From Butyricimonas sp. Marseille-P3923 (GTDB lineage: Bacteria > Bacteroidota > Bacteroidia > Bacteroidales > Marinifilaceae): a stretch of 64,000 bases of DNA. Shown piece by piece: positions 8,075-41,418 of the stretch. The number at the start of each line of letters is the position of its first letter. The stretch's first letter is position 1. The stretch lies in contig NZ_FXXL01000006.1 of NCBI RefSeq assembly GCF_900184685.1, positions 682,001-746,000 of the forward strand, read 5' to 3'. The notes under the pieces are model-generated. The model did not search any database and had not been told where the DNA came from. It saw only the letters and a program-made list of their open reading frames with translations. The position numbers and the translations under genes are program-made.

Positions 8075-9298
8075 ATGGTTAGCGACTACAAAGAAATTCT
8101 ATCAGACAGCGCCAAAGGAATGAAGCGCTCTGCTATCAGGGAGTTATTAAAGTTAACTCAAAAACCGGAAATCATTTCTTTCGCCGGGGGACTTCCCGCC
8201 AAAGAATCTTTCCCGTTAGAACAATTACAGGAGATTTCCGCGGAAGTAATCGCCACGGATGGTGCTGCCGCTTGTCAATACGGTTCAACCGAAGGTGTTC
8301 CGGAATTATTGGAAATTCTGGCTCAACGTTATCGTGACCAAGGATTAAGTTTCGTTACCAAAGAAAATATCACGATGACCACTTCTTCTCAACAAGGATT
8401 GGACTCTGTTGGTAAACTTTTCTTGAATCGCGGAGATAAATATATTTGCGAATTGCCCTCTTATCTTGGTGCTTTAGGTGCATTCAACTCTTACGGCGGC
8501 GTTGGCGTAGGAATCCCTCAAGATGAACAAGGTATGAGTGCCGTGGAATTGGAAAAAACTTTGGCTGAAATGAAGGCTAAAGGTGAAAAACCGAAATTTA
8601 TTTATCTGATTCCGGACTTCCAGAATCCCGCCGGTATGACTATGCCGGAGGCCAGAAGAATGGAAATCCTGAGCATTGCCAAGAAATACGACATCTTGAT
8701 TATCGAGGATAGCCCTTACCGCGAATTACGCTTCACGGGTAAACCGCAACGTATGTTGTATGATCTGGACAAGGGTGAAGGTAACGTGATCACGTTGGGA
8801 ACTTTCTCTAAAATTTTCTTACCGGGATTCCGTATGGGTTGGGTTCTCGCTCACCCGATGGTAATCGACAACTTCGTGAAAGCAAAACAAAATACAGACC
8901 TTTGTACTTCCGCGTTCTTGCAAAAAATCACGGTGAAATTCTTCCAGAAGAACTACTTCGATGCCAACGTGAAGAATATCGTTGAAATGTATCGCAAGAA
9001 ACTGGAGGCCATGTTAGGTGCTTTCGAAAAATACATGCCGGAAGGTGTTACATGGACTCGTCCGGAAGGTGGTTTGTTCTTGTTCTTGAACTTGCCGGAA
9101 GGATACGACGCAGAAGAATTGTTCCAGATCGCCATCGAGAAAAACGTGGCATTCGTTCTCGGAACCGTGTTCTTCGTGAACGGTAAAGGCAAAAACACCA
9201 TGCGTATCAACTTCTCGTACATGAGCGAGGAAATGAACATCGAAGGTGTGAGAAGACTTGCCGAATCTATCAAAGAATTGTACGCAAGACATAAATAA
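8075..9298 (+). CDS. PLP-dependent aminotransferase, class I/II (LysN/MocR-catalytic type)
   Basis: Transfers amino groups between an amino acid and a 2-oxo acid using pyridoxal phosphate. The 407 aa have the fold-type I layout: ISFAGGLPAKESFP near the N-terminus, IPDFQNPAGMTM in the cofactor region, and GTFSKIFLPGFRMGWVLA with the Schiff-base lysine. The pattern is closest to the 2-aminoadipate/aromatic aminotransferase group, which resembles the catalytic half of MocR regulators but has no DNA-binding domain. The exact substrate is not readable. Own transcription unit ending in a hairpin. Confidence 0.9.
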   Translation: MVSDYKEILSDSAKGMKRSAIRELLKLTQKPEIISFAGGLPAKESFPLEQLQEISAEVIATDGAAACQYGSTEGVPELLEILAQRYRDQGLSFVTKENITMTTSSQQGLDSVGKLFLNRGDKYICELPSYLGALGAFNSYGGVGVGIPQDEQGMSAVELEKTLAEMKAKGEKPKFIYLIPDFQNPAGMTMPEARRMEILSIAKKYDILIIEDSPYRELRFTGKPQRMLYDLDKGEGNVITLGTFSKIFLPGFRMGWVLAHPMVIDNFVKAKQNTDLCTSAFLQKITVKFFQKNYFDANVKNIVEMYRKKLEAMLGAFEKYMPEGVTWTRPEGGLFLFLNLPEGYDAEELFQIAIEKNVAFVLGTVFFVNGKGKNTMRINFSYMSEEMNIEGVRRLAESIKELYARHK

Positions 9299-10274: not shown

Positions 10275-12635
10275 ATGTGGACTAAGATAGCAGGGATTCT
10301 TCTTCGTAACCGGATTGCCTTTATTACAGGGATCTTGATCATAACCATCTTCATGGGATTCCAAATTCCAAAAGTGGAAATGTCGTACGAATATGCCAAC
10401 TTGTTACCAGCCACAGATAGCGCCTATCTGGATTACGTTGATTTTCACGAGAAATTCGGTCAAGAAGGCAATGTTATGGTTTTTGCCGTTCAAGATTCGA
10501 ACTTCTACCAGTTGGATAAGTTGAATGACTGGATTGCCATGTGTGATAGTTTAAAGGCTTTGCATGGAGTCATTGCCCTCGTGGATATCACGCATTCATA
10601 TAACTTGCAAAAGGACACTCTCAACAAAAAATTCGAGATTCATCCCATTTTTCCGAATCGTATCAAAGATCAGAAAGAACTGGACAGCCTTGTCAATATT
10701 ATTGAAAACTTACCCTTCTACGACGGGACGCTTTTTAACAAGGCGAAAGATATTTACGGGATGATGATTTCAGTTTCCGCCGATGTGATGAATTCTCCGG
10801 CACGGGTAGGACTGGTAAAGGATGTGTTGGAAATCACGGAAGAGTATTCAAAGAAATATAACATACAGATGCATTATTCGGGGATGCCTTACATCCGGGT
10901 AATCAATGCCGAGAATATCAAGGGGGAAATGTACATGTTCATTTTCTTGTCTTTGCTGATTACCACGTGTATCTTGTACCTGTTTTTCCGTTCTTTCCGA
11001 ATTATTGGCTTCTGCTTGTTGATTGTTCTGATTTGCGTGAGTTGGACGGTCGGCGTCATGGCTATGCTGGGGATTAAAATCACTCTGTTGACCGCCATGC
11101 TCCCGCCTTTATTGATAGTGATTTGTATACCGAATCTAGTGTTCATGATTAACAAATTCCACGCGGAATACGACCGACACGGCAACAAAATTAAGGCGTT
11201 GCAACGCATGATTCAAAGAATCGGGAACGCTTCTTTCTTGAGTAACTTGACAACGGCTGCCGGATTTGCCACGTTTATCGTGACTTCCAGCCAAATTCTG
11301 GTAGAGTTCGGAATCACGGCATCTATCGGTATCGCCTTTGTTTACTTCGTGTGCCTCATCATGATTCCCTGTGGATTCAGTTTTATGCCTGACCCGGATA
11401 GCAAACAAATCAAACATCTGCATAACAAACTAGTAAATAATACAATAGATCATGTCATCCAGCTTATTCTAAATCGCCGGAATGTAGTTTACGCCATAGC
11501 TATCGTGATAGTCATTCTAGGTGGAATAGGGATATCCATGATAAAATCTACCGGCTATATGGTGGATGATTTGAAAGAAACAGATCCTATTCGTCAAGAC
11601 CTTTCCTTTTTTGAAAAGAATTTTGACGGACTGATGCCGTTGGAAGTAACTGTCGATTTCAAAAAACCAAAGCAGGTTTTAAATTTACCTAATCTCGAAA
11701 AACTGGATAGACTCTCCAAAGAATTAGCCGAAGATGAAGATGTATCCAAGCCTATTTCTATCGTGGAAGTAATCAAGTTTGCCAATCAAGCCTTTTATAA
11801 CGGCAAACCGACTTACTACAAGCTTCCGACCAATATGACGAAGAATTTCATCCTGAAATACGCTTCACAATCCACGGGAGAACTTGGTAACCAAGCCAAT
11901 TCATTTATTGACTCCACTCTCCAGCGAACGCGGTTAAGTTTCCGGATTAAAGACATCGGCACCAAGAAAATGCAGGAAAAAGAAATTAAACTGTATGAAA
12001 TCGCAGAGAAGTATTTTCCAAGTGATCGTTACACGGTGAAAGTGACAGGTTCAAGTATCATTTTCTTTAAAGGAACCCAATATCTTGTATTCAACCTTTT
12101 TACCTCACTTGCCTTGGCCATTCTTCTGATTGCCCTCTTTATGGCGTGGATGTTCAAGAGCAAACGTATGGTACTCGTGGCATTGCTCCCCAATATTATC
12201 CCGCAAATCATCACGGCTGCCATCATGGGGTATTTCGGAATCCCCATCAAAGCATCCACGATACTGGTATTCAGTATTGCCTTTGGAATCTCGGTAGACG
12301 GAACCATTCACTATCTGGCCAAATACCGTCAGGAATTGCAGGGAACGAACTGGAGTATCCGTTCCTCCGCAGTGTTGGCCTTGAAAGAAGCGGGACAAAG
12401 TATGATATACAACGCAATCATCCTGTTCTTCGGCTTCGGTATCTTCGCCCTTTCCGATTTCGGGGGAACCGTCGCACTGGGAATCCTAGTATCGATCACC
12501 TTGCTCGCCGCCATGCTTTCCAACTTGATCCTCCTCCCGTCACTCTTGCTGACGCTGGATAAACACACCACGAACAAAACATTCCAAGACCCCAAAATTG
12601 ATATCTTCTCGGAAGAGGAAACGAAAGAAAAATAG
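10275..12635 (+). CDS. RND-superfamily / MMPL exporter
   Basis: Inner-membrane exporter of the RND superfamily (MMPL/SSD-like predicted exporter). The 786 aa have the duplicated layout: one N-terminal span, a periplasmic loop and about five spans (residues about 225-400), then the same again (spans about 410-430 and 600-760), with FSIAFGISVDGTIHYLAKYR in the second half. Substrates of such proteins include lipids and hopanoids in other bacteria; none can be assigned here. No fusion or outer-membrane partner is adjacent. Confidence 0.88.
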   Translation: MWTKIAGILLRNRIAFITGILIITIFMGFQIPKVEMSYEYANLLPATDSAYLDYVDFHEKFGQEGNVMVFAVQDSNFYQLDKLNDWIAMCDSLKALHGVIALVDITHSYNLQKDTLNKKFEIHPIFPNRIKDQKELDSLVNIIENLPFYDGTLFNKAKDIYGMMISVSADVMNSPARVGLVKDVLEITEEYSKKYNIQMHYSGMPYIRVINAENIKGEMYMFIFLSLLITTCILYLFFRSFRIIGFCLLIVLICVSWTVGVMAMLGIKITLLTAMLPPLLIVICIPNLVFMINKFHAEYDRHGNKIKALQRMIQRIGNASFLSNLTTAAGFATFIVTSSQILVEFGITASIGIAFVYFVCLIMIPCGFSFMPDPDSKQIKHLHNKLVNNTIDHVIQLILNRRNVVYAIAIVIVILGGIGISMIKSTGYMVDDLKETDPIRQDLSFFEKNFDGLMPLEVTVDFKKPKQVLNLPNLEKLDRLSKELAEDEDVSKPISIVEVIKFANQAFYNGKPTYYKLPTNMTKNFILKYASQSTGELGNQANSFIDSTLQRTRLSFRIKDIGTKKMQEKEIKLYEIAEKYFPSDRYTVKVTGSSIIFFKGTQYLVFNLFTSLALAILLIALFMAWMFKSKRMVLVALLPNIIPQIITAAIMGYFGIPIKASTILVFSIAFGISVDGTIHYLAKYRQELQGTNWSIRSSAVLALKEAGQSMIYNAIILFFGFGIFALSDFGGTVALGILVSITLLAAMLSNLILLPSLLLTLDKHTTNKTFQDPKIDIFSEEETKEK

Positions 12636-12649
12636 AGAACGCGGAAGCA

Positions 12650-13981
12650 TCATATCAGCTTCCGCTCCTTCAAATCCAAATAACTATTGATACTGTTCAC
12701 GGTGAGGGCTTCCGGTTTGGAAAGGATCACCCGGATACCCATTTGGCTCAATTCCCGCACCATTTGTCGTTTCTCCATGGCAAATCCGGCGGCAATGGTT
12801 TCGAAATAGACATCTTTGACACCACGTACAGGACGTTCCAAAGCTTTATTCAGCTCCGAGTTTTCAAATAAAACAATCAATACCAAATGTCGGCTCGCCA
12901 GTCGTCGCAAAGCCGAAAGATGACGCTGCATTCCGGTTACGGTGTCGAAATTGGTAAAAAGGATTAACAGACTACGTGTCGGGATTTGTCGGACAACCGA
13001 AATATATAATTTCTCGAAATCCGACTCTTGATAATGTGTTTCCAACCGATAGAGGAATTCACTGATTCTATTCAATTGTCCCACCCGATTATCCGCTTTC
13101 ACACAATTCCGGGAAGTATTGGAAAACGTGATTAATCCTGCCCGATCACCTTTTTTCAATATCACGTTGGACAATGTCAGTATGGTATTGATTGCATGAT
13201 CCAGCATCGTCATCCCGTTAAAGGGGGATTGCATGGTACGACCTTTATCCACGAGGCAATAAATCTGTTGCGAGCGTTCCTCCGTGTAAGTATTTACCAT
13301 TAAATGGTTATGCTTTGCCGTGGCTTTCCAGTTCACGGTACGGGGATCATCCCCCACCACGTAAGGCTTGATCTGTTCGAACGCCATATTCCCCCCCAAC
13401 GCACGGGTACGCATTGCACCGTTCTCCGGGTGATAATTCCCGTAAGCCATTAACTCGTACCGGTGCATCATCATAAACGACGGGTAAACGGCAACCTCCC
13501 GTTCCAAATCAAAAGAGTAACGCCTTTCCACCAGCGACAAACGGGTAGATATAAATGCCCGAACCTTGCCGAACCCGTATGCTCCCCGTTTGGTTGGGCG
13601 CAAAGTATAATTTATTCTCTGCTGTTCGCCGGGCATCATATTTAAAGAGAAAGAAATATGCCGATTCTGGAACTCCACAGGAATCTCGTCTATCAAACGG
13701 CAATGCACCCCCACGGGATAACGATTCCGAACCTCGACACGAACGGGATTTTCCTCCCCGTTGGAAAGCTTGTCCGAAACAACACGGGAAGCCTCGAATC
13801 CTTGTTTATAACGGTACAAGGCTATCAACTCCAATAACACCATCACCGCATACATGAGCAAAGCCCCCGCCACCCATATCAATAGTAAAGGAAAGACATA
13901 AGCCATCACGAGGGCAAAAATGCCCAACAGCAAACAGGTGAAAAAACGCCCGGTCAGATATGTATCTTTAAATACTCGCAC
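12650..13981 (-). CDS. DUF58 domain protein
   Basis: Membrane-anchored DUF58 protein, the usual partner of MoxR ATPases. Two N-terminal hydrophobic segments (about 10-55) precede a beta domain and the DUF58 core with GDDPRTVNWKATAKHNHLMVN, the family signature. A von Willebrand A-like region follows, but its MIDAS-like start reads DKGRTM instead of DxSxS, so metal binding is doubtful. The start codon is GTG, sharing one base with the stop of the MoxR gene. Last gene of the leftward operon. Confidence 0.92.
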   Translation of the reverse strand: MRVFKDTYLTGRFFTCLLLGIFALVMAYVFPLLLIWVAGALLMYAVMVLLELIALYRYKQGFEASRVVSDKLSNGEENPVRVEVRNRYPVGVHCRLIDEIPVEFQNRHISFSLNMMPGEQQRINYTLRPTKRGAYGFGKVRAFISTRLSLVERRYSFDLEREVAVYPSFMMMHRYELMAYGNYHPENGAMRTRALGGNMAFEQIKPYVVGDDPRTVNWKATAKHNHLMVNTYTEERSQQIYCLVDKGRTMQSPFNGMTMLDHAINTILTLSNVILKKGDRAGLITFSNTSRNCVKADNRVGQLNRISEFLYRLETHYQESDFEKLYISVVRQIPTRSLLILFTNFDTVTGMQRHLSALRRLASRHLVLIVLFENSELNKALERPVRGVKDVYFETIAAGFAMEKRQMVRELSQMGIRVILSKPEALTVNSINSYLDLKERKLI

Positions 13982-36417: not shown

Positions 36418-36485
36418 CGACTGAAGACTTCAGTACCAATAAGACTGATAAACAGTAATAAATCCTACCCGAATACTGTATCATT

Positions 36486-36635
36486 CCCGTATGAATTCCG
36501 GTTCACTCCCATGTAAAACGCTATTAGTTCCCTATTAAAACGCTATTAAAACCCTATACTATAATAGCGTTTTAATAGCTTACTAAAAGCTTAGTAAAAA
36601 CTTTATAACCAGAATTGAACCGGAATTGATACGGG
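36486..36635. repeat. Nested inverted repeat after the DUF4249 gene (MITE-like or terminator)
   Basis: Outer arms CCCGTATGAATTCCGGTTCA (36486-36505) and its complement (36616-36635) match at 19 of 20 positions. Inside, CTATTAAAACGCTATTA (36532-36548) pairs perfectly with 36562-36578, and TTACTAA (36580-36586) pairs with TTAGTAA (36591-36597). The element marks the start of the AT-rich segment. It may terminate the upstream operon or be a small non-autonomous element. Confidence 0.7.
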
Positions 36636-36874
36636 ATTCAAACCGAATTTATATAGTTTTTGGGGAGAACCTCATCCCGTTCTCGACATAAAGTACTTCT
36701 CCGGATTCCCTTCCCGCCCTATGATATTACATCCAAAATTTTCAAAATGTTTGGATTACTCTCTATTCATCATCTGTTGAAAAAATCAAATTTCAACTTG
36801 ACATATTCTAAAATATTTTTCATATTCAACAGAAAAATCACACAACAAAGGGATATATTCAAAGAAATATTATT

Positions 36875-36882
36875 TATCTTTG
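36875..36882 (+). promoter_or_regulatory. -7 promoter box upstream of the cobalamin riboswitch
   Basis: TATCTTTG matches TAnnTTTG and lies about 83 bases before the aptamer. No clear -33 TTTG at the ideal distance. The stretch 36640-36870 shows no convincing gene. Confidence 0.5.
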
Positions 36883-36964
36883 CCAAGAGTTCTTAAAAAT
36901 AAATTGTCATAAAAATATAGCAATTTATTAATATCATAGGAAAGAGGTTCTTTTATCTTAGATA

Positions 36965-37143
36965 AAGATTAAAAGGGAATACCGTGTAATTCGGTAACTG
37001 TTCCCGCAGCTGTAAGTCCTAACTTCAATTTGAAGTTGACTTCCTAGAACTACGTCACTGTTCATTCATGAATGGGAAGACTCTAGGAAAGGATAAGTCA
37101 GAAGACCTGCCTCCAACAATATAGATTTATCTCCTGCGGAGAA
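36965..37143 (+). ncRNA. Cobalamin (B12) riboswitch
   Basis: Sensor RNA for adenosylcobalamin or a related cobamide. Conserved elements appear in order: AAAAGGGAATACCGTG, TTCCCGCAGCTGTAAG, GTCACTG, GGGAAGA, and the B12 box AGTCAGAAGACCTGCC (37096-37111). After it a hairpin TCTCC-TGC-GGAGA (37130-37142) carries CTGCGG, complementary to CCGCAG at 37004-37009, which suggests the loop-loop contact of this riboswitch class. The next gene on this strand is the first CDC-like lipoprotein gene, 319 bases downstream. The downstream hairpin at 37306-37345 could be the switch output. Class and ligand specificity are not proven. Confidence 0.93.
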
Positions 37144-37305
37144 CGGGGTGGTACAATAAGTTTTTATCTTATTGATAAAGCATCAAGATTTCCTAGAAAT
37201 AAAGTTTATATTGTTAAACACAAACGACACTGTCGTATTACCTACCTATATATTAATAAGTTATACTTTATTATGGCTAAATAAAAGTAAGTTTAATAAA
37301 GAAAA

Positions 37306-37345
37306 GACGTTGCCAAACACCCCTCGAAATGGCATAGGCAACGTC
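37306..37345 (+). terminator. Hairpin in the leader between riboswitch and first CDC-like gene
   Basis: GACGTTGCC (37306-37314) pairs with GGCAACGTC (37337-37345) over 22 loop bases, followed by CGCTCTTTCT. The weak T run makes it a possible attenuator or the riboswitch expression platform. Confidence 0.5.
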
Positions 37346-37363
37346 CGCTCTTTCTAAGATAAG

Positions 37364-37382
37364 AAAGGAGGCACGAATGTAA
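37364..37382 (+). other. Strong Shine-Dalgarno followed by a start-stop codon pair
   Basis: AAAGGAGG (37364-37371) precedes, with five-base spacing, ATG directly followed by TAA (37377-37382). Such a strong ribosome site is rare in this genome. It lies 80 bases before the first CDC-like gene and could be a start-stop regulatory element or a relic of a deleted gene. Confidence 0.5.
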
Positions 37383-37461
37383 AAAGAAATACTTAAAGTT
37401 TATTTGTGAAAAACAATCATTATTATAAATAAACAAGTCGTACAATATAAAAACTAATGAT

Positions 37462-38562
37462 ATGAAATCTATAAATATTTTATTGGCATCCATTACGATG
37501 CTTACTTTCATAATTTCTTGTTCAAAAGACGATAAGCTTATTTTAGAAAAGAAAAAAAATACTCATGCACTAATAAAATATCCACAAACCCCTATCGACA
37601 TAGTGGCGGGTAATACAGACCAATACAACTCAAACTCAAGGGCATTATCCTTCCTTAAAGATAGTTTATGGCCTGAAGCAACTGGCCATACTTTAATATA
37701 TGAAACAGATGAAATCACATCACTACAAGGGTTAGAAAGATATATTTATTTAGGAGCACTATTAAAAGGAGAGTCTTTAGAAACCCAAAAGTATCAGGCA
37801 TTAACCAATAAAGTGGAACCTATTACTATTTCATACTCGTTTCCAGCTAAATTTGTAATTGATGAGATAGAAAGACCTTCTCTTTCTGCAATGAGACAAT
37901 CTATTGTTAACACTATGAATAATAATGGTATGTCCGGGAAACAAATAGTGTCTTTCAGTTATGATATGAATCAATTCACCTATTACGACGAATTGAAGTT
38001 AAATTTTGCATCTAATATTAATGTTGCCAGCATTCTCAATATAACTGTAGATGCGGCAAAAGGGAAAATATCTCAAAGAACAGGCTTAATTGCTAAATTT
38101 ATTCAGAAAAATTTCACAATGGACATGGATATTCCATACGATGGAAATTTACTTTTGAACAACGATGATATAAATTCTCTAACAGGCTATTCCCCTGTTT
38201 ATATTAGTTCGATAACTTATGGGCGAATGGGAATTATAACTATGGAATCAAATTATAGTTATAATGAAGTTAGGTTAGCAGTAAAAGCTGCATTTGATGC
38301 CAAAATAATTAATGGAGATATTAGTATTTCCAGTAATTATAAAAAAATCATAGATGAATCTAATATAAAAATTTATATGGTTGGAGGAGATGGAAGTGGT
38401 GTTGCAGAATCTGTTGAAGGATTCGCCGCTTTTAAGAAATATATAATTAATGGAGGTTATTATTCTCCTGAGGTTCCAGGCGTTCCTATTGCTTTTACCG
38501 CAAGTTATTTAATTGATAATTCTCCTGTTTACACAAAATTTAGGATTAATATTCCAAAATAG
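37462..38562 (+). CDS. CDC-like (CDCL) pore-forming lipoprotein, short form
   Basis: Distant relative of cholesterol-dependent cytolysins. Of 366 aa, Cys20 ends a lipoprotein signal (LTFIISC). Matches to the cytolysin core occur in the same order as in the family: YLGALLKG (96-103; YPGALLKA-type), ITISYSFP (121-128), YISSITYGR (247-255; the YISSVAYGR signature), GGD (308-310; the Gly-Gly hinge), and PGVPIAFTASYL (339-350; PGVPIAYTTNFL-type). It stops right after the core and lacks the membrane-binding domain 4 and its undecapeptide, as known for short CDCL components. Bacteroidota CDCLs act as two-component antibacterial toxins. Neighbours: the long form follows after 39 bp. Visibly AT-rich compared with flanking genes, which suggests acquisition. 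Toxin activity is inferred. Confidence 0.88.
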   Translation: MKSINILLASITMLTFIISCSKDDKLILEKKKNTHALIKYPQTPIDIVAGNTDQYNSNSRALSFLKDSLWPEATGHTLIYETDEITSLQGLERYIYLGALLKGESLETQKYQALTNKVEPITISYSFPAKFVIDEIERPSLSAMRQSIVNTMNNNGMSGKQIVSFSYDMNQFTYYDELKLNFASNINVASILNITVDAAKGKISQRTGLIAKFIQKNFTMDMDIPYDGNLLLNNDDINSLTGYSPVYISSITYGRMGIITMESNYSYNEVRLAVKAAFDAKIINGDISISSNYKKIIDESNIKIYMVGGDGSGVAESVEGFAAFKKYIINGGYYSPEVPGVPIAFTASYLIDNSPVYTKFRINIPK

Positions 38563-38601
38563 AATTTTCAAGAATGAATTTATACACAAAATCGAAAAGA
38601 T

Positions 38602-40206
38602 ATGAAAAATATACTATTTATATCCATTATATCACTATTATTTTTTAGTGCTTGTGAAAAACACTCGTTGGAGATTAATGATAATAATCCTGCATTTAAT
38701 CTTCCTAAATTCCCCGAGGAAATAATTAATGTTAATACTCATAACTATATGCCAGAAATGGCAATAGAAAAGTGGGAAAATGGTAATATAAAACCCTTTG
38801 GACAAAATAATCTTTCTCGTGCAACAGAGATTCTCAAAGATAGCTTGTGGAAAAATGACTTCGGAAGGACTATTTATGCTCAAGCAGACGAATCAATAAT
38901 CTTGCCAAATCTTCAAAGATATATTTTCCCGGGTTCTTTGTTAAAGGGGAATACAATTTCTGATTGTAACTACACTCCAATTAGCACAACGATTAATCCA
39001 ATAACTGTCTCTGTGTCATTTCCTGCTAAAAAAGTTGTGGGAACTATTGAAAAACCCTCACTATCTGCTACGAGAAGTTTTGTAAATGATGTTTTGCAAC
39101 AAGAAGGAATTGGCTCCCAGAATTCATCACTAAATTTTAATATCGATCAATTTACTTCTTACGACGAGTTAAGGATGGCATTTGGCTCCAATGCAAAAAC
39201 TAGTGCATTATTTTTTAGCAACACTTCATCTTCTTCAGAGAAAGTACAAAAGATATCTAAAAAAACAGGTTTATATGTAAGATTTGTTCAGCGCAATTTT
39301 ACTATAGACATGGATATTCCGTCATCAGGAAGTTTAATTAACGGTCATTTAACTTCGGAGCAGACAGGTGGGTATTCTCCCGTGTATGCGGCATCTATTA
39401 CTTATGGGAGAATGGGGATATTGGCAATAGAAACGGATTATACATATACAGAAGCACACAAGATTATCGAGCAAGCCTTTAAAACAATTTTCTACAAGAA
39501 ATCAAGTACATTAACGGACGAAGCGAAGCGCATGTTGAGTTCAGCTACTATGCGAGTTTATCTAATAGGAGGGGACGGACAATCAGGCGCACAGACAGTA
39601 AACGGATATCAAGATTTTATTCGCCATATATCCGAAGGAGGTACATTTAATTCTATGACTCCAGGAGTTCCGATTTATTGTAGCTTTGCTTATTTAAGTG
39701 ATAACGCACCTGTAAAGATTAAATTTAAAATTAATGTTTCGTCTGATCCTGTTTATGCAAGGATCGAGTACCGAAACATGGATGGAAAACCTTGGAGTAA
39801 TTATAGACAAGGTTGGAAAAATGGAGATGTATATATTGCTTTCTATTCAGATTTAGCAGCAACAACTCGAACCGAACCCGCTTCTTTTATTAAATTTAAA
39901 TACAGACAAGTTTATCGCTACCAACGTTGTCAAGATGCTAAATGGGATGATCTAATTGATGATGAATTTAAAGTTGAAGAAGAAGGTTTTATACAAAATA
40001 CATATAAAGAGAATTCCATATTATTATTCAAACAAATGTGTTTACAACTTGAAGAAAACTATGACCCAGATGTTCTATTTGGTCAATATACTTGGTTCAA
40101 AGAATGGGGATGTCAATTAACTGAAGGGGATTATTACAAAATATTAAAACCTATCGCTTTGGATTCAAGATACAAATATGATGTTTGGCCAGAAGAAAAC
40201 TATTAG
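38602..40206 (+). CDS. CDC-like (CDCL) pore-forming lipoprotein, long form with extra C-terminal domain
   Basis: 534 aa, a clear paralog of the preceding short form. Lipobox Cys18 (LLFFSAC). Core motifs: FPGSLLKG (109-116), ITVSVSFPAK (134-143), YAASITYGR (262-270), GGD (323-325) and PGVPIYCSFAYL (354-365). Residues about 380-534 form an extra domain in the place of CDC domain 4, but no ECTGLAWEWWR-like undecapeptide is present. Instead there are several Trp/Tyr/Cys residues (for example YTWFKEWGCQLTEGDYYK at 496-513), so it probably binds a receptor other than cholesterol. In known CDCL pairs the long component binds the target and recruits the short one. AT-rich. Followed by a hairpin, then a third paralog. 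Confidence 0.87.
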   Translation: MKNILFISIISLLFFSACEKHSLEINDNNPAFNLPKFPEEIINVNTHNYMPEMAIEKWENGNIKPFGQNNLSRATEILKDSLWKNDFGRTIYAQADESIILPNLQRYIFPGSLLKGNTISDCNYTPISTTINPITVSVSFPAKKVVGTIEKPSLSATRSFVNDVLQQEGIGSQNSSLNFNIDQFTSYDELRMAFGSNAKTSALFFSNTSSSSEKVQKISKKTGLYVRFVQRNFTIDMDIPSSGSLINGHLTSEQTGGYSPVYAASITYGRMGILAIETDYTYTEAHKIIEQAFKTIFYKKSSTLTDEAKRMLSSATMRVYLIGGDGQSGAQTVNGYQDFIRHISEGGTFNSMTPGVPIYCSFAYLSDNAPVKIKFKINVSSDPVYARIEYRNMDGKPWSNYRQGWKNGDVYIAFYSDLAATTRTEPASFIKFKYRQVYRYQRCQDAKWDDLIDDEFKVEEEGFIQNTYKENSILLFKQMCLQLEENYDPDVLFGQYTWFKEWGCQLTEGDYYKILKPIALDSRYKYDVWPEENY

Positions 40207-40227
40207 TAATTAAATTTGTTCAATGAA

Positions 40228-40255
40228 AAGCTGTTTCCCATAATGGAAACAGCTT
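40228..40255 (+). terminator. Hairpin between the long CDCL gene and the third paralog
   Basis: AAGCTGTTTCC (40228-40238) pairs perfectly with GGAAACAGCTT (40245-40255) around CATAAT, followed by CTTAAAC. Probable partial terminator or processing site, lowering expression of the third gene relative to the toxin pair. Confidence 0.65.
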
Positions 40256-40270
40256 CTTAAACTAAAAGAT

Positions 40271-41278
40271 ATGAATAGATTATTCTTTGTTATAATTTTA
40301 ATAAAAATAGGACTAAGCGCTTGTCACAACAATCTTGAGCACGAAGACCCTATAATAAAGATTGACTCCACGAATTTATCTGAAATAGTTTGGAGTGATT
40401 ATCTTCCCTCCTCGCTGCTGCTAATGCACGATAGCCTTTGGCCAGATCAAAAAGGACATAGTTTTTTTGTACAAAGTGAAAAATTATTTGTAATCCCAAA
40501 TAACGAAGTAAATATCTATATCGGAGCAATTATTGATAGCAATTTAAAACAATTTCCAAATGTGAAAGTAGTGGATAATGTAGATTGCAATTCAATTTCT
40601 TTATCATTTAGTACCAACAAAAAATGCTATCATTACTCTCAAATACCATCAAAAGAAAACATGAACTTGATAATAAAGGATTATCAACGAGAAAATGATA
40701 GTCAACAAATTGTATCATTCAAATATGATAATGGTTTTAGATATAATTCTTATAAAGAACTTTTTTTGCAATTTTCCTATTTGGGAATACACCTAGATAG
40801 TATATTAACAGGAGAAAGGTACGATAAAATTTCCATGAGCAAAAAGAATGGGATCGCCATCGTTTTAGAACGCAAATTGTTTAGTCTTGACATGGACATC
40901 CCTTCAACTCCTTTGAATTTTGCAGAAGAGAACAAGGATGAACATGTATATATATCATCAATAATGTTTGGAGATCTTAAAATAATGTTGATTGAAGCTG
41001 ATTTATCTCTTAGTGAGATGAACACTTTTATTGGTTCAATAAAAAATAAAAACAATTTAACTGTTAAGGAACAGAATGTTATAAAAGATTGGAATATATC
41101 CATAATAGATATAAATTCAAAGGAAATAAAAAAAACAGGAGATCTGAATAATCCAATATATTGGTTTTATAATAAACTTTTAAATACGAATATTCACGCA
41201 GTCCCTATTTATGCAACTTTTGCTAATTGTAATGATCATAGCCCTTGCAATGTATCTTTTAGCATAGCATTGCCATAA
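40271..41278 (+). CDS. Diverged CDCL paralog lipoprotein lacking the pore motifs; candidate self-protection protein
   Basis: 335 aa lipoprotein (lipobox LSAC, Cys18). Homology to the two preceding proteins is visible: DSLWPDQKGHSFF (54-66) against DSLWPEATGHTLI, NIYIGAIIDS against YIYLGALLKG, FSLDMDIPS (204-212) against FTMDMDIPY, YISSIMFGD (227-235) against YISSITYGR, and AVPIYATFANCNDHSP (310-325) against GVPIAFTASYLIDNSP. The Gly-Gly hinge is gone (IIDINSKE at 278-285) and the Gly-Arg of the signature is Gly-Asp, so it is unlikely to form pores. The reading frame is intact, which speaks against simple decay. A surface lipoprotein protecting the producer is known in CDCL systems; that this gene has this role is my inference. 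Confidence 0.7.
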   Translation: MNRLFFVIILIKIGLSACHNNLEHEDPIIKIDSTNLSEIVWSDYLPSSLLLMHDSLWPDQKGHSFFVQSEKLFVIPNNEVNIYIGAIIDSNLKQFPNVKVVDNVDCNSISLSFSTNKKCYHYSQIPSKENMNLIIKDYQRENDSQQIVSFKYDNGFRYNSYKELFLQFSYLGIHLDSILTGERYDKISMSKKNGIAIVLERKLFSLDMDIPSTPLNFAEENKDEHVYISSIMFGDLKIMLIEADLSLSEMNTFIGSIKNKNNLTVKEQNVIKDWNISIIDINSKEIKKTGDLNNPIYWFYNKLLNTNIHAVPIYATFANCNDHSPCNVSFSIALP

Positions 41279-41418
41279 ATTCACTAGAATAACAAGATAA
41301 AAGGCAAAAACTTTATTCATTATTGGAGACTTAATTTACTTATTGATCAAGATATCTTTTCTTTGTAGAATATAAAAAATGGATTAAATCTTCCCGCTCT
41401 CGAATTTTCACGGAATGT

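Follow-up and report, generated by a model that had tools for sequence, protein, structure and literature searches.

Results

Locus layout

The stretch analysed here, hereafter the window, comprises 64,000 nucleotides of Butyricimonas sp. Marseille-P3923 (NCBI RefSeq assembly GCF_900184685.1, contig NZ_FXXL01000006.1, positions 682,001 to 746,000). It contains three consecutive genes, S, L and T, for lipoproteins related to the cholesterol-dependent cytolysins (CDCs), and these are preceded by a cobalamin (vitamin B12) riboswitch aptamer. The three open reading frames (ORFs) had been described in an earlier note on this DNA, and we find them on the + strand where it placed them, encoding 366, 534 and 335 residues, with spacers of 39 nt between S and L and 64 nt between L and T. 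The riboswitch was not among that note's observations. Each protein begins with a lipoprotein-type signal (lipoboxes, read by eye, of IISC in S, FSAC in L and LSAC in T). The features of the locus, in window coordinates, are as follows.

36693 to 41394, + strand: putatively acquired block with the riboswitch and S-L-T, flanked by a DUF4249 gene and rplM (delimited by GC content and blastn)
36875 to 36882, + strand: TAnnTTTG box TATCTTTG, a predicted promoter element and the only + strand match in 36418 to 37462
36928 to 37127, + strand: cobalamin (B12) riboswitch aptamer RF00174, full model 1 to 189 (99.4 bits, gathering threshold 31.5, E 1.2e-24)
37306 to 37345, + strand: stable 9-bp hairpin followed by a weak U tract, between the aptamer and S (fold of 37300 to 37365, -16.2 kcal/mol)
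37462 to 38562, + strand: S, predicted CDC-like (CDCL) short subunit, lipoprotein of 366 aa (PF01289, E 2e-24; EaCDCL-S 8g32, E 8.5e-88)
38602 to 40206, + strand: L, predicted CDCL long subunit, lipoprotein of 534 aa (PF01289, E 3.3e-20; EaCDCL-L 8g33, E 1.4e-86)
40271 to 41278, + strand: T, CDCL paralog, lipoprotein of 335 aa, a candidate immunity protein that is read here as pore-incapable

The S and L pair

The CDC-family relation of S and L, which the earlier note had put forward, is borne out far above chance. In addition to the E values given above, both proteins pass the cut-off of 25 bits for Pfam Thiol_cytolysin (PF01289), with 86.6 bits for S and 72.7 bits for L. The cytolysin-core motifs reported in these two adjacent lipoproteins are likewise present, with YGR, GGDG and PGVPI found in both, as is the Gly pair (GG), and their sizes match the published short-long arrangement of two-component CDCLs of Bacteroidota, as had been suggested; the expected order is an S of about 365 aa and next to it an L of about 500 aa. 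The Pfam match of L stops at residue 374; beyond it lies a C-terminal region that has no counterpart of equal length in S or T and that is non-CDC as judged from Pfam and PDB matches only.

In our tree, the rows nearest to the window S and L are the pair of Phocaeicola vulgatus ATCC 8482, and the highest identities are 51% for S and 45% for L. Arg60 of S and Arg73 of L correspond in the alignment to Arg60 and Arg70 of the P. vulgatus S and L, respectively, and this P. vulgatus L reads TRASE at that position. BfCDCL-L is cleaved at TR70 (PMC11169675). Activation cleavage is predicted to occur after Arg60 in S and after Arg73 in L. A 279-aa lipoprotein, calculated to be 30.2 kDa when mature, is encoded directly upstream of the ATCC 8482 S; BcdI in the published MGE1/MGE2 layout is 30.4 kDa (PMC11169675), and, because of this mass and the TR at residue 70 of L, the ATCC 8482 locus fits that layout.

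The mechanism of such pairs has been described: L binds, a C11-type protease activates both proteins, and many S join to give the pore, which in EaCDCL consists of 30 S subunits, with killing of sensitive Bacteroides/Phocaeicola cells (PMC11169675; PMC11952106). Bacteroidota of the human gut commonly carry CDCL pairs (PMC11169675). S and L are almost certainly a Bacteroidota two-component CDCL toxin pair. As a pair they are already known in kind, and the novelty of the operon is T and the riboswitch leader.

The third gene, T

T is a divergent paralog of S and L. Its best PDB match is 8g32 (E 2e-5), profiles of L and S built without the window rows score it at 75.9 and 67.9 bits, and it falls in a clade of its own in the tree (support 99/96). 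The Thiol_cytolysin profile that detects S and L has no match in T up to E 1. The paralogy proposed for the third gene thus holds, whereas the evidence of its hairpin, its residues and its lone copies is against a third pore-forming toxin.

We compared the core motifs across 20 S, 23 L and 11 T rows. This set omits near-duplicate Chryseobacterium loci, Sphingobacteriaceae L051 and L056-L060, L053, L061-L077 except L066, L068, the truncated S of L037/L045 and L150, lone CDCLs such as L025, L148/L149, and L145, which is a near-copy of L144; its L026 row is a single piece of a broken gene. The second-hairpin segment, counted from the Tyr of YGR up to the first residue of the Gly pair, has 56 residues in all 43 S and L rows and is shorter in every T row (48 residues in eight of them, and 51, 39 and 19 in the others). 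The Gly pair is found in 18/20 S, 14/23 L and 0/11 T. The Arg of YGR is present in 43/43 S and L, a figure valid for the counted rows only, as a loose pattern gave non-Arg residues in some Sphingobacteriaceae rows, versus 4/11 T; the window T and its relative in genome G007 have Asp. In the window T, the segment has 48 residues, DI stands for the Gly pair and FGD for YGR, and the PG of PGVPI is gone. In perfringolysin O, changing Arg275 to Ala leaves less than 1% activity, and the Gly pair is intolerant of side chains, with the protein trapped as a prepore (PMC7527733).

The N-terminal part of T is altered as well. The window T retains the DSLW...GH part of the propeptide region that is common to S and L, and it has no Lys or Arg at residues 31 to 60, the place of the cleaved Arg in S and L, with a Lys at 61. 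Both AlphaFold2 (AF2) models of T contain a strand at residues 49 to 56, the same region in which pro-EaCDCL-S is described as having an additional strand, beta0 (PMC11952106). The best solved relatives of the model whose alignment included S and L rows are the EaCDCL structures. Because the trigger and cleavage residues are gone and the second hairpin is shortened, T seems to be fixed in the pro-form and incapable of insertion. The YGR and Gly-pair motifs alone are insufficient to establish inactivity, and hairpin length is the stronger sign.

Distribution of T

T adjoins S and L in four loci: in the window it follows L, and in L046, L047 and L048 it directly precedes S. Among the 41 S/L-type loci listed, to which the window is additional, 3 have T and 38 do not. 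In eight genomes (G007, G357, G380, G179, G448, G583, G783 and G666), T lies away from S and L, and seven of these lack S and L; the eight are chance finds and do not amount to a census. PF01289 is absent from G007, G380 and G179, only T itself matches it in G357, and G448, G583 and G783 lie outside the 22 of 349 genomes that are positive for CDCL. A lone T in a toxin-free genome is what would be expected of an immunity gene and would be unexpected of a pore component.

T is rare, given its presence in 2 of 56 genomes in the family scan and matches in 7 of 393 in the order scan, with S/L-like and chance matches included in the latter. One order-scan match, in G128, is by eye a hemerythrin-like frame and is likely a chance match. 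A T-family profile that included the N-terminal part was swamped by BACON-domain matches in Bacteroidaceae (at least 215 of 349 genomes), so its tally was left unused and a core-only T profile replaced it. BACON domains above the cut-off occur in three of five T relatives tested. The window T and most of the T relatives tested fall under the Pfam cut-off of the published CDCL survey (PMC11169675).

The G007 homolog (L026 7584-7949 and 7804-8622; 49% identity) stands alone, is split over two frames, and is flanked by genes that by eye are peptidase-like and RND-pump-like. Over 251 codons, the window T differs from the longer G007 piece at 125 third positions and at 94 and 76 of the other codon positions, a third-position excess that is a weak sign of selection; a codon comparison of the near-identical lone T copies L144/L145 was uninformative. 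In Bacteroides ihuae (G209), which belongs to the same order as the window genome, T (L048 8599-9717) reads from within a BACON-like part, with istA/istB-like genes just upstream (L020 3158-5459, by eye), and its signal peptide may have been lost.

T as a candidate protector

Two other kinds of putative protector accompany S/L loci. One is BcdI; the other is a family of lipoproteins of about 200 aa that adjoins S and L in 16 of the 41 loci listed and whose members are candidate immunity proteins (L027 6375-6974, L033 12537-13124, L036 8866-9465, L048 12656-13270, L050 9127-9729, L147 5516-6130 and others). Three of these lipoproteins match each other at E 8e-8 or better in a three-sequence database, and the two tested have no Pfam family above the cut-off. 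On the opposite side of the P. vulgatus locus lies a second BcdI-like protein of 308 aa (L028 1984-2910).

No protein resembling BcdI or the 200-aa family is found among the 198 window ORFs of at least 60 aa, which makes T the only known candidate protector in the window. In the three loci in which T lies directly upstream of S, it occupies the BcdI position. As a BcdI homolog, T was rejected: a phmmer search with the ATCC 8482 BcdI-like protein, a query other than B. fragilis BcdI, returned no window ORF up to E 1; the T rows scored E 0.3 or worse against this protein with filters off; and the protein itself has no Thiol_cytolysin match. The producer genome also encodes a C11-protease lipoprotein of 394 aa, predicted from sequence, that could in principle activate the producer's own toxin. 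We consider it fairly likely that T is a protective (immunity) protein for the producer. Among the titles and abstract starts of open-licence papers, we found no report of paralog or orphan immunity for such toxins.

The riboswitch leader

The cobalamin aptamer is the only Rfam element between 36000 and 42000, and no other + strand ORF of at least 80 aa lies between it and S. Upstream of it, TAnnTTTG is presumably the -7 element of Bacteroides promoters. The hairpin between the aptamer and S, which is absent from the output of a terminator scan, is a possible expression platform; alternatively, it could be a separate element. In B. thetaiotaomicron, expression of operons that carry cobalamin riboswitches goes up when cobalamin is absent (PMC12751083). 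We propose that the cobalamin riboswitch quite probably sets the expression of S, L and T.

We scanned 28 CDCL loci for riboswitch leaders, namely the window plus 27 others, of which L037 is cut near the gene start and L051, L055 and L066 each hold one CDCL gene. Two have such a leader: the window (cobalamin) and L047 (thiamin pyrophosphate, TPP). Leaders are thus found in 2/4 T-bearing loci versus 0/24 others (Fisher p 0.016, post hoc), and about 0.22 would be expected from an assumed share of riboswitch-led operons, with a rough P of ~0.02 for two or more.

In L047, from Dysgonomonas UBA5412, a T-S-L operon lies behind a TPP riboswitch of its own (8331-8419, 66 bits), which ends just before T (possible starts 8440-8467) and is preceded by a TACGTTTG box at 8320. 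The operon is directly downstream of a complete thiamin operon, whose gene names we assign presumptively, with its own TPP switch (1310-1401); over 73 nt, this switch and the one before T are 81% alike. Three relatives were aligned at thiF, and none of the three has a riboswitch downstream of thiF in the stretch examined or anything of the T-S-L block.

Neither 'riboswitch' nor 'vitamin' occurs in the main text of the published CDCL survey (PMC11169675), and the titles and abstract starts of open-licence papers gave no report of a riboswitch-controlled toxin or bacteriocin. PMC4947327, considered as a precedent, is not one in the part drawn on here.

Origin and surroundings of the block

The GC content of 36693-41394 is 31.3%, against 44.5% in the remainder of the window. 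No blastn alignment covers this segment in any of the five other genomes of the genus, and at the equivalent site all five lack both a riboswitch and CDCL genes. To the right of the block, all five align; to the left, four align as far as the DUF4249 gene, and the fifth (L160) also has a shortened left flank. Since the flanks align and the block does not, we take the riboswitch and S-L-T block to be horizontally acquired. On its left lies a TonB-receptor/DUF4249 gene pair, and on its right lie what we take to be the ribosomal protein genes rplM-rpsI. Among the ORFs beside the block, read by eye, no integrase- or transposase-like frame was noticed. An imperfect inverted repeat of 86 nt (71%) at 36472-36649, between the DUF4249 gene and the block, is present in part at this site in three of the five genus relatives; it is maybe a terminator or an insertion edge.

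Searches of mobile elements gave no relatives in the viral contigs scanned, four Listeria phage records with matches to L, and plasmid records of which six match S and one matches T; of these, only a Chryseobacterium plasmid locus was used further. In the Alistipes locus L046, the L gene (11098-13148) is apparently split, with a 537-aa frame and, after it, a 145-aa frame still matching the L profile.

Discussion

On balance, we find it somewhat likely that this locus is an acquired antibacterial S/L operon in which T protects the producer and a B12 riboswitch exerts control. In the mechanism that we propose, S and L would be exported as lipoproteins and act like the Bacteroides CDCL pair. L would bind the surface of a rival cell, a trypsin-like (C11-type) protease would remove both propeptides at the conserved Arg, and many S would then join L in a large beta-barrel pore that kills the rival. 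The family relation of S and L is observed, and the pore mechanism is that published for their relatives. On the producer, T would keep the CDCL fold yet be neither activatable nor able to insert; meeting the cell's own S or L at the surface, it would stop the ring from growing or inserting, in the manner of BcdI in B. fragilis and of CD59 for complement. The losses in T and its lone occurrence are likewise observed, and from them and its place in the locus we infer immunity. When B12 is plentiful, the operon would be kept low, and when B12 is scarce, the leader would be freed and S, L and T would be made, such that the toxin would be deployed when neighbours compete for B12. Here the presence of the riboswitch is the observation, and its control of the toxin is what the locus suggests.

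Several findings weigh against the proposed role of T. The Lys at residue 61 is possibly cleavable, the Arg of YGR is kept in 4 of 11 T, and an exact GG is missing from 9 of 23 L and 2 of 20 S. The S and L rows in the AF2 alignment of T favour an S/L fold, and a control with T rows only (four rows) reached a pLDDT of 47.0 and a pTM of 0.47, which is too poor to support the fold independently. One of the eight lone-T genomes, G666, has a CDCL on another contig. Moreover, T evolves fast and the G007 copy lies in two frames, so a decaying copy is possible. Such decay is the basis of one rival explanation, in which T is a functionless duplicate or, in the lone cases, serves another role, such as that of an adhesin in the BACON-domain versions. 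Long branches in the tree, the split G007 copy and the BACON domains in three of five relatives tested fit this account, but open T frames occur in several families and directly beside S and L in four loci, and the third-position excess is a further, weak point against it; we regard it as unlikely. A different view would make T a third component of the working toxin, required by S and L as a non-inserting scaffold or receptor adaptor, like C6/C8-beta of complement. T is indeed a sequence relative of S and L that adjoins them on their strand, and CDCL triplets have been published in P. vulgatus/dorei (PMC11169675). A needed partner is, however, difficult to reconcile with T-like genes that lack S and L in seven of the eight genomes where they were found away from them, with the 38 of 41 S/L-type loci listed that lack T, and with two-part relatives that function without T (PMC11169675), and we judge this explanation quite improbable.

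The riboswitch could also be a bystander, either because the CDCL genes landed behind it or because it serves another target, and in that case would exert no control over the toxin. The distance from aptamer to S, 334 nt with a separate hairpin between, speaks for this and against our proposal, as it compares with 54, 91 and 124 nt at three other + strand switches among the nine cobalamin switches of the genome (two further + strand switches, L164 and L166, have no gene within the 54-124-nt range, and the three - strand switches are outside the comparison). The absence of any riboswitch leader from 26 of the 28 loci scanned points the same way. Against a bystander stand the lack of another + strand ORF of at least 80 aa before S, the joint absence of switch and toxin genes from five of five relatives, and the occurrence in Dysgonomonas of an unrelated vitamin switch immediately before T-S-L. 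We consider the bystander explanation doubtful, and continue to favour control of S, L and T by the cobalamin riboswitch.

Four known systems come closest to this operon. BfCDCL S/L (Abrahamsen et al. 2024, PMC11169675) are likewise adjacent lipoproteins of similar sizes, in the same order, with Arg at the predicted activation sites and in the same Pfam family; compared with the BfCDCL/BcdI arrangement of Bacteroides MGE1/MGE2, the window has no BcdI-like gene and has an extra lipoprotein, T, after L. By sequence, the solved structures closest to S, L and T are those of EaCDCL-S/L of Elizabethkingia anophelis (8g32, 8g33, 6xd4, 9ccp and 9ccq). The EaCDCL operon is described as having no other co-transcribed gene (PMC11169675), whereas the window adds T and a riboswitch. 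The published triplets (pattern 1, P. vulgatus/dorei) also bring three CDCL genes together (PMC11169675). In G660 (L138 5079-8591, - strand), which we took for a pattern 1 triplet, the third gene (295 aa) has GN for the Gly pair and shorter hairpin segments, of 45 and 50. Unlike T, however, its product keeps the Arg of YGR, scores 130.9 bits with the S profile versus 71.7 with the T profile, has no clear lipobox by eye and is encoded before L; T belongs to a different clade. P. vulgatus ATCC 8482 (G692) carries the triplet third gene, one residue different, without adjacent L and S (L139 6114-7001, - strand), and has another S/L pair elsewhere; this lone third gene is a parallel to lone T. The btu operons of Bacteroides have the same kind of riboswitch and serve cobamide uptake (PMC12751083), whereas the window switch leads toxin genes.

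More broadly, we tentatively suggest that vitamin riboswitches (B12 and TPP) may gate some Bacteroidales pore-toxin operons, and that a dead, uncleavable, insertion-incapable CDCL copy may serve in self-protection and spread alone as orphan immunity. If this were true, killing would be switched on by vitamin scarcity, which would make a direct link between antagonism and competition for vitamins in the gut, and T would be a bacterial case of a disabled pore-former paralog acting as its own antidote. The locus offers testable answers to what triggers CDCLs and to how producers without BcdI survive.

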